Assembly: GCA_024275485.1 (NCBI GenBank)
Contig: JAJRZA010000097.1
Coordinates: 1-51,536 of the forward strand
Reading direction: 5' to 3'
From: Candidatus Krumholzibacteriota bacterium
GTDB lineage: Bacteria > Krumholzibacteriota > Krumholzibacteriia > LZORAL124-64-63
Length of the DNA stretch: 51,536 nt
Of this stretch, positions 48,824 to 51,536 are shown one piece after another (the first letter of the stretch is position 1; every line of letters starts with the position of its first letter). The notes beneath the pieces are model-generated. The model had not been told where the DNA came from. It saw nothing but the letters and a program-made list of their open reading frames with translations, and searched no databases. A program made the position numbers and the translations under genes.

Positions 48824-49161
48824 GGACTTTCCCTTTCAGACGGTGGCGAATGTTTTGACTGGGAAGACCAATGCCCATGGTCAGAAGTTGCACTTACGAT
48901 TGAAATAATATTGAGAAATTCCATAAAAATCCGCAACCAGTTGTATATTTTCATCTGTCCCCTGCATATCAAGCCTGTGTAAGGTTCTTCGTGTTGCATC
49001 GAATTAAATCTTATGCACCACCGCTTGTGCAGGGTAGTGCATCTTCTCTTCTGTAATTTCTTCTCTTGACCCAGTTCCGAAGGAACTAGGGTGGAAAAGG
49101 CGGGCCACTTCTGTTCTTCTTGTCGGTGAAGTCCAATTCACTAACTGGAAGGAAGAAAGTA
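48824..49161. other. left flank of the IS256-type element
   Basis: No gene is supported in these 338 bases. They hold the promoter of the minus-strand gene at 48823 and probably the left end of the insertion sequence, but I could not find an inverted copy of the 64-bp arm seen at 50260-50395. A small perfect palindrome AGTTCC-GAA-GGAACT lies at 49073-49087. GGAAGGAAGAAAG just before 49162 is a strong ribosome-binding site. Confidence 0.4.
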
Positions 49162-50259
49162 ATGACCCACCACGAAGATGATACAACAATTGCACGGGTG
49201 ATGGAAACCTTGATTGACAATGGCATGGAGAGCATGGGCGATGCCTTTGGGATTTTGTACAATGCGGCCATGGAACTGGAGCGAGCTCAATTCTTGGGGG
49301 CCGGCCGGTACGAGCGTAGCGAGACCGGGTAGGCCGAGCCAATGGTTTCAAAGATAAGAATATGAAATCCCGAGTTGGCGAAATTGCCCTGAAAATTCCC
49401 CAGGTTCGCGATTTGCCTGAAGGTGCGGAGGGATTCTATCCCAAGTCTCTCGAGAAGGGGCAGCGCAGTGAGCGTGCACTTAAACTTGCTTTGGCTGAGA
49501 TGTATATCCATGGCGTTTCGACCCGAAAAGTGACCAAGATCACCGAGGAATTGTGTGGCTTGGAAGTCACCAGCATGCAGGTCAGTCGTGCCACCGAGTT
49601 GCTTGATGAACAGGTAAAAGCCTGGCGCAATCGTAAGCTCGGATCAATCCGTTATCTGATCCTGGATGCTCGTTACGAGAAGGTCCGTCATGGTGGCAGC
49701 GTCATAGATTGCGCGGTTTTGGTTGCCCTTGGGGTTGATGAAAAAGGGAAGCGTACTGTCCTTGGAACAAGTGTGGCATTGTCAGAGGCAGAGGTGCATT
49801 GGCGGGAGTTCATCTCGTCATTGCAGGACCGTGGTATGCGCAATGTGCAGATGGTCACCAGCGATGCCCATGAGGGCCTTAAGAAGGCCTTACGGGCCAC
49901 GATGTCGGGCGTTCCCTGGCAGCGTTGTCAGTGTCATCTCCAGCGGAATGCCCAAGCCTATGTCCCGAAGGTGTCAATGAGAAAGCAAGTGGCGGCTGAT
50001 ATCCGGAAAATTTTTGCTGGGTCTGATCGTAAAGAGGCTGATCAAAAGTTGGAGGATTTTGTGCTGGCCTACAAGAAAACGGCCCCCCGTTTGGCTGAGT
50101 GGGCTGAAAAAAACATCCCCGAAGGGCTGACTGTTTTTGAATTTCCCGTCAGTCACCAAAAGCGAATGAGAACATCGAATGGGATAGAGCGCCTAAACAA
50201 AGAAATCAAAAGACGGACCAGGGTGGCAACCTTGTTCCCGAATGAAGCATCTCTGCTAC
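49162..50259 (+). pseudogene. IS256-family transposase, frameshifted and truncated
   Basis: A DDE transposase of the IS256/mutator group. The N terminus (49162 to ~49326: 'TTIARVMETLIDNGMESMGD', 'AAMELERAQFLGAGRYERSE') and main body (from ~49327: 'SRVGEIALKIPQVRDLPEGA', 'EKGQRSERALKLALAEMYIH') are in different frames; a one-base deletion near 49327 explains it, since a -1 shift restores the expected 'TRVGRANGF'. The catalytic acids are present: Asp in 'LILDARYEKV', Asp in 'QMVTSDAHEGL', Glu in 'TSNGIERLNKEIKRR'. The body ends at 'ATLFPNEASLLR', where the family normally has ~20-30 more residues, and runs into the perfect inverted repeat. No slippery heptamer is seen, so programmed frameshifting is unlikely. 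Confidence 0.88.
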
Positions 50260-50395
50260 GTAAGCGGTCAGCCTCGACCGTCTTCCCCCCAGGCCTCTTT
50301 GGGTGTAGAACTGTTACGAGCACCAACACCAGTGCTCGTAACAGTTCTACACCCAAAGAGGCCTGGGGGGAAGACGGTCGAGGCTGACCGCTTAC
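50260..50395. repeat. perfect 64-bp inverted repeat joining two truncated genes
   Basis: Bases 50260-50323 and 50332-50395 are exact reverse complements over 64 bp, with an 8-base loop (CAACACCA). On the left it cuts off the IS256-type transposase just before its C terminus; on the right it cuts off a subtilase gene on the minus strand just at the catalytic core. Both interrupted frames run into the arms and read the same foreign residues ('KRSASTVFPPGLFGC'). One frame of the right arm ('QFYTQRGLGGRRSRLTAY') could be the lost end of an IS transposase, so the arms may be insertion-sequence termini. An assembly artefact is also possible. Confidence 0.9.
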
Positions 50396-51143
50396 TTTCC
50401 AACACCAAAACATTGACGCCGCTCCCTTTTAAGCCGTAGGGTATTTCATGAATAATATCCGCCCCGATTTCCGGCCTGACACGATCCATTACGTTGCCAA
50501 TTGGAGCCTGAACCTGATCAATCCATTGGACTGTTTTGAGGCCAATAAGATCATCCAAAATTGCGGGCTCAAACTCCACGGTAGCTGTTCCTATCAATGA
50601 GATGAAATTGGAATCAAAAATGCTGATCGATTGAAGATCAGTTATCGCAGTCGCCGAATCAACCTCGCTGTGGAAAGCTATTGTTGCCCACAAATCACCA
50701 TCGGGTGCAACCGCCCATGAATCAAAGTTTCCTGTTGCCAGTGTATCGTAGATCCGGTATTCCGACGTATACGGTCCTGCCCAAACTATGCCGGCGTTTT
50801 GGATCTCATTTGATGGTGGGACATCGGAAACATCGGCAATCCACGCGCGGTAGGGAATGTAGTCCAAAAGCTTCAGGCCGAAGCTTTCCAAAGTCTGTCG
50901 GGTCGAGTACGTTGGGATGTTGCTTAGACGTAAAATTACATATTCGTCCTGGTTTTTTGCATCAATGAGGATCTGTTCAATATCAGATATAGATTTTTCA
51001 GATGCAATAACATCGCCGGTTTTCAACTTAATATATTCCCAAGAATCACCGTCTCTTGGGACGGCTGCTGAAGCAATGGTGGAGACAAGGATGATAGCGA
51101 CAACGAGCCAACTCAACGGTACTAATCCAGAAATCTTATGCAT
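50396..51143 (-). pseudogene. subtilisin-like (S8) serine peptidase, truncated at the catalytic core
   Basis: About 249 residues of the N-terminal part of an exported subtilase. A signal peptide ('PLSWLVVAIILVSTIASAAV') is followed by a long prodomain-like region ('TYSTRQTLESFGLKLLDYIP', 'YRAWIADVSDV', 'AGIVWAGPYTSEYRI'), which matches the pattern of S8 propeptides in FCB bacteria. The sequence then reaches 'GLKGSGVNVLVLES', the first strand of the catalytic domain, where the triad Asp should follow within one or two residues. At that point the 64-bp repeat interrupts it. Asp, His and Ser of the triad are all missing. AAAGGAGG six bases before ATG 51143 shows the start is genuine. The rest of the gene is not found in the window. 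Confidence 0.78.
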
Positions 51144-51401
51144 GACACCCTCCTTTGTACATGTTGGTCCTTTGCAAGGCTCTCAAGAATCCTGTTTCAA
51201 AGTTCATTGGGAGCGAAAACGGCACTGCTGCCCAGAGTAACAGGACCACATAAAGCCGCATTGAAGATGCAGAAATAGATCTGTTTTTCCCTCCATTGTT
51301 GCCTGGCGATCAGTTATTTACTGGGCTTCCAGCGTAAAGGGATGAGCATCTGCACCTATCGCCCAAACATTCCCCCCTGCTATAATCTCAGTTGCTGAGT
51401 T
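51144..51401. other. intergenic region between truncated subtilase and IS66 remnant
   Basis: No gene is supported in these ~260 bases. They contain the upstream region of the subtilase (minus strand) and may include the right end of the neighbouring insertion sequence. No clear inverted terminal repeat could be matched. Confidence 0.4.
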
Positions 51402-51536
51402 TTAGGCGCTAAGTTTTTCGGCTGATTTTTTCTTCGCCGCCCAGCCATGCGGGGTCAACTCCGCAATGCGGAACTGCGGGTGGGTGTTGACCCTGACCAT
51501 GACGTCCGCCAAATATTCCTGGGCATTGATGCCAAG
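51402..51536 (-). CDS. IS66-family transposase, C-terminal end (continues outside window)
   Basis: The last 44 residues of an open frame that enters from the window edge: 'LGINAQEYLADVMVRVNTHP', then 'QFRIAELTPHGWAAKKKSA' and a TAA stop. The pattern GIN-x-x-x-YL-x-DV followed by 'HP' and R-I-x-EL-x-P-x-x-W is the conserved C terminus of IS66-type transposases. With only the end visible I cannot tell whether the element is intact. Confidence 0.75.
   Translation of the reverse strand, partial: LGINAQEYLADVMVRVNTHPQFRIAELTPHGWAAKKKSAEKLSA

Follow-up and report, generated by a model that had tools for sequence, protein, structure and literature searches.

A perfect 136-bp palindrome between two truncated genes as the probable scar of a deletion between inverted IS66 copies

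In the nearly precise excision of Tn10, a deletion takes place between short repeats that lie inside the inverted IS10 ends. This event does not depend on cuts at the transposon tips, and what stays behind is a short palindrome consisting of the outermost bases of the IS. A study of a Tn10-related transposon, as it is cited in PMC12524634, was read as copy-choice between short direct repeats. For ISPsy5, a member of the IS66 family, an 8-bp duplication has been reported (PMC3916326). Here, we describe a perfect palindrome in a bacterial draft genome that was probably produced by an event of this kind, in which two identical, inverted IS66 elements in two different genes would have been reduced to a palindrome by a deletion via 11-bp hairpin repeats.

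The window, meaning the whole stretch of DNA that was analysed (51,536 nt), is the entire contig C82 from a draft of 106 contigs and 3.98 Mb. An inverted-repeat search of the window identified two arms of 64 nt each, at 50260-50323 and 50332-50395, which are 100% complementary and separated by an 8-nt spacer, giving a palindrome of 136 bp in total. It is by far the longest inverted repeat in the window, with none other of such length, and the perfect repeat with 64-bp arms and an 8-base loop given in the preliminary description was confirmed in the assembly at the same coordinates. The palindrome is gene-free and has no IS66 right end, the only IS66 left-end remnants being pieces of 83 and 64 bp. 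A structured RNA was rejected as its identity, as Rfam gave no match in the window. At the contig start (1-78), the window also contains a 28-bp inverted repeat (96%, 22-nt spacer). At least two further contigs, C14 and C15, have it at an end as well (their starts), and it is a dispersed palindrome at which the assembly breaks.

When the window's own genome was searched with the arm, only three contigs were matched. At C21:24807-24889, 83/83 bp of the left end are found with 100% identity, at the point where an integrase reading frame loses its end. The native continuation of this normal IS66 left end is TCGAAAACATCACC; on C21, the left end runs on with TCGAAAACATCACCAAGGAGGCCTCCATGCAAACAAAC, a ribosome-binding site and the start of tnpA, and the contig stops 138 bp into the IS, with the tnpA start alone visible there. 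A sister element at C34:11306 has 83% identity over the arm and 86% over the 138 bp. Behind its left end lies the complete IS66 family set of tnpA (NF047593), tnpB (PF05717) and tnpC (PF03050, NF033517). A genome of the same genus (G029) carries a further diverged left end at three loci with an identical start base and differing flanks, and three complete relatives from a wider collection start with GTAAGCGG, end with GCTTAC and are bordered by exact 8-bp duplications (CAACGTTC, GTTAAAAC and GGCGCACC). The terminal GTAAGCG stands at the insertion boundary, and the first base coincides in C21, C34, the three loci of G029 and several relatives. Positions 50260 and 50395 are thus the outward-pointing tips of two IS66 left ends.

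The search for the arm in the rest of the genome, which the preliminary description had proposed, thus returned a normal IS terminus on C21. The possibility it raised, that the arm is the right end of an IS256-type element, did not hold. IS256 ends were rejected as the source, since the arm's genomic matches, on C21 and C34, are IS66-type left ends only; IS256 is only a target. The identity of the arms, which had been taken as a sign of very recent origin or of an artefact, stands as an observation and is explained instead by two copies of one IS.

Other traces of these elements were also seen. The complete sister on C34 (11306-13686; L007, L018) lacks an 8-bp duplication where it seems to end (AGTAGGCC / TTTAATAC), a hint that another rearrangement took place there. 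A second truncated IS66 copy (C10:1-259; L015), 93% identical to that on C34, starts inside tnpB and leaves the contig end; therefore, IS66 remnants with internal breakpoints occur beyond the palindrome site. A BLAST comparison of the left end with plasmids gave no match, and a scan of genome contigs and viral contigs for the left-end hairpin pattern, which is a narrow one, gave none.

The two left ends can be traced along the palindrome base by base. From 50260 to 50342 on the plus strand, the window carries left-end bases 1-83, from the tip GTAAGCGG through the complete native hairpin, with 100% identity to the C21 copy. A second left end, bases 1-64, follows in reverse on the minus strand (50332-50395) with its tip at 50395, matching the initial 64 bp of the left end on C21 with 100% identity, so the order is bases 1-83 and then the reverse complement of bases 1-64. 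In the native C21 left end, positions 54-64 and 73-83 form an 11-bp perfect hairpin ahead of tnpA, GTTACGAGCAC-CAACACCA-GTGCTCGTAAC, with an 8-nt loop; such an 11-bp hairpin was present in 0/2000 shuffled left ends. The loop CAACACCA lies at 50324-50331 (plus strand) in its native orientation relative to the left copy and is identical in C21. The two left-end pieces overlap by 83 + 64 - 136 = 11 bp, which is exactly GTGCTCGTAAC (50332-50342, no strand assigned). This sequence is common to both left ends and is the fusion point, where the hairpin arm has served as a direct repeat. When the 138 bp known of the left end are compared with their reverse complement, no direct repeat is longer than GTGCTCGTAAC. 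The inverted IS ends at this locus are, therefore, joined internally on a short direct repeat.

No 8-bp target duplication was found at the junction, where the flanks TCTGCTAC and TTTCCAAC match at 5/8 positions. Because the duplication is absent, the junction is not a simple IS66 insertion. The left ends of C34 and G029 have hairpins of different sequence at the same place, in which a few both-sided changes keep the pairing, a comparison of three sequences that is too small to prove conservation. The predicted left-end fold also pairs the ribosome-binding site of tnpA. Blocking of read-through expression is known for IS10 and IS50, and our guess is that the IS66 left-end hairpin might block read-through expression as well.

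To the left of the palindrome lies an IS256-family transposase gene (49120-50259, plus strand) that is frameshifted near 49330 and cut by the IS66 left end. It matches NF033543 (8.8e-95) over profile positions 31-328/338 and aligns with PF00872 up to position 363/379 with one TAG inside, so that only the last 10-16 profile positions are missing. Its open reading frames are 49120-49332 and 49362-50387. The break in the frame between 49120 and 49362, a shift with a TAG at 49330, is independent of the IS66 insertion; because of it, the gene is either a past or present pseudogene or carries a sequencing error. Ahead of the gene, the stretch 49033-49120 has a 97% match at C95:222-309 with no transposase gene behind it, and this match is likely a solo IS256 end or a remnant.

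The right flank (50396-51143, minus strand) encodes 249 aa in a frame at 50397-51143, which by themselves have no Pfam or other family match. A homologue from the same class (L161) aligns up to the last residue of this protein (29% over 112 aa, pairwise E 8e-07) and, beyond the aligned part, contains a complete Peptidase_S8 domain. This alignment supports reading the flank as the N-terminal part of a subtilase, encoded by the 5' part of the gene and cut where the catalytic domain would begin. Weak matches to GTP cyclohydrolase in family and PDB searches were discarded as chance, and a search across the order for subtilase relatives that would reveal the ancestral layout found none outside the window's genome. 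Further right, the contig runs out at 51347-51536 in the 3' part of another, different IS66-like transposase gene, which lies on the minus strand and was recognised by eye from the C-terminal sequence. The same stretch is found at C11:20465-20669 with 100% identity, and this recurrence within one draft supports the right flank as part of the window's genome. The preliminary description was, hence, right to name a truncated IS256-type transposase on the plus strand and a truncated subtilase on the minus strand, and right that both are cut exactly at the outer ends of the repeat, which are the IS tips. Its argument that halves from different genes do not fit a simple insertion also stands, given an IS256 transposase on one side, a subtilase on the other and no duplication.

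The arrangement is best explained by a deletion between two identical IS66 copies. One copy would have been inserted in the IS256 transposase gene and the other in the subtilase gene, inverted with respect to each other and with their left ends pointing outward. Such inverted left ends would present the 11-mer as a direct repeat at both hairpins. The inverted copies, of about 2.4 kb each if the C34 sister is taken as a guide, could, by pairing with each other, place the short repeats close together as the DNA is replicated. By slippage or copy-choice, one left end may then have been joined, at its 3' hairpin arm, to the matching 11-mer of the other, with loss of the two IS bodies, of each gene's far half and of the intervening DNA. 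What would remain is the transposase flank, a left end of 83 bp, a reversed left end of 64 bp and the subtilase flank, with an 11-bp overlap. A deletion between the 11-mers yields precisely the sequence seen. The two full copies, the deletion event and its replicative mechanism are what we infer for the past of the locus. Of the earlier proposal of a deletion or inversion driven by insertion-sequence ends, the deletion came closest; the ends are those of IS66, not of IS256, and the join lies inside them and not at their tips.

The duplications expected before the deletion are TCTGCTAC at the copy in the IS256 gene and GTTGGAAA (subtilase strand) at the other copy. The far halves were searched for with a combined pattern of an assumed right end, CGCTTAC, and the duplications GTTGGAAA, TCTGCTAC and CGTGTCAT, which gave two matches, neither equal to any of them. 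The genome has 13 subtilase matches, and none of them was recognised as the missing far half. The absence of the far gene halves fits a deletion only weakly, as the draft is incomplete, only 10-16 transposase residues would be recognisable and two of the subtilase matches are cut by contig ends. The parental arrangement with the deleted segment was not found in any relative.

An assembly mis-join had been considered from the start, and a more general form of it is that two separate, genuine IS66 insertions were falsely joined in the library or the assembly by a read that folded back or was chimeric at the left-end hairpin. The join does sit at a hairpin, a structure that allows strand switching by polymerases and in chimeric amplification, and the draft is fragmented, with the IS66 interior unassembled. 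We nevertheless consider such an artefact unlikely. The end overlap of C83 and C18 is exactly 141 bp, and the abutting contigs C13 and C23 give exactly the same figure; a maxK overlap has been described for MEGAHIT and metaSPAdes contigs, with 141 as the last k of the MEGAHIT runs (PMC10914622). Since the contig ends overlap by exactly 141 bp, the final k-mer was 141, which exceeds the palindrome's 136 bp; with k this large, paths cannot be joined through a shared 11-mer. Both flanks enter the palindrome unforked, while C21 shows the break expected of a true multi-copy insertion, 138 bp inside the IS, and flanks from two different genes are more than a simple fold-back would account for. An appreciable number of reads from either flank into a normal IS66 would have forked the graph and broken the contig, as on C21. 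Judged by how such assemblers behave, the unbroken path therefore suggests that most of the sequenced population carries the fusion.

Two explanations would make the palindrome a product of transposition itself. In favour of an adjacent deletion or inversion made by the IS66 transposase on its own ends, IS66-type ends are present at the site, and an identical left end does occur elsewhere, on C21. Yet the transposase acts at the tips, and here the tips are intact, point outward and keep their flanks, while the join is internal, at bases 83 and 64, on the 11-bp repeat. Because of this geometry, transposase chemistry does not produce the join; the full IS is also absent from the site, and this origin seems very unlikely. 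A palindromic MITE, a 136-bp unit with two IS66 left ends inserted whole, would account for a short, gene-free sequence with transposase-recognisable tips at both ends. It is highly improbable, with one copy only in the genome, no 8-bp duplication and two unrelated genes as flanks, which would need another rearrangement. The hairpin-type mobile element of the preliminary description found no support for the first two of these reasons.

A deletion between inverted IS66 copies would explain a striking perfect palindrome as an IS scar and would indicate that IS66-type copies can delete host DNA and leave no IS behind. It would also offer a clean example, resolved to the single base, from beyond the classical Tn10 system. 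For annotation, the locus carries a warning: both flanking reading frames run into IS sequence, so the predicted protein ends are not real. Whether the IS66 left-end hairpin is a recurrent deletion hotspot that fuses inverted copies into double-left-end palindromes, able in turn to be mobilised in trans as new MITEs, is a speculation to which we give little credence.

Compared with known systems, the palindrome has the IS66 family (ISPsy5 type) as the source of its arms, which are left ends of elements whose relatives have tnpA, tnpB, tnpC and 8-bp duplications. Unlike an intact IS66, it retains only 83 + 64 bp of left ends, with no genes, right end or duplication. It resembles a MITE in being short and gene-free with inverted IS tips at both ends, but it is single-copy, lacks a target duplication and has flanks from two genes; by the two features tested, copy number and duplication, it is not a MITE. 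The closest likeness is to Tn10 nearly precise excision, in which the join also falls on short repeats inside two inverted IS ends and leaves a short palindromic remnant. The Tn10 remnant, however, sits in a single gene with a target duplication, whereas the palindrome here joins two different genes without one. Therefore, two independent IS insertions are implied, and the palindrome is not the result of composite-transposon excision. It belongs to a known kind of event and is an ordinary genome scar, with an unusually clear anatomy.
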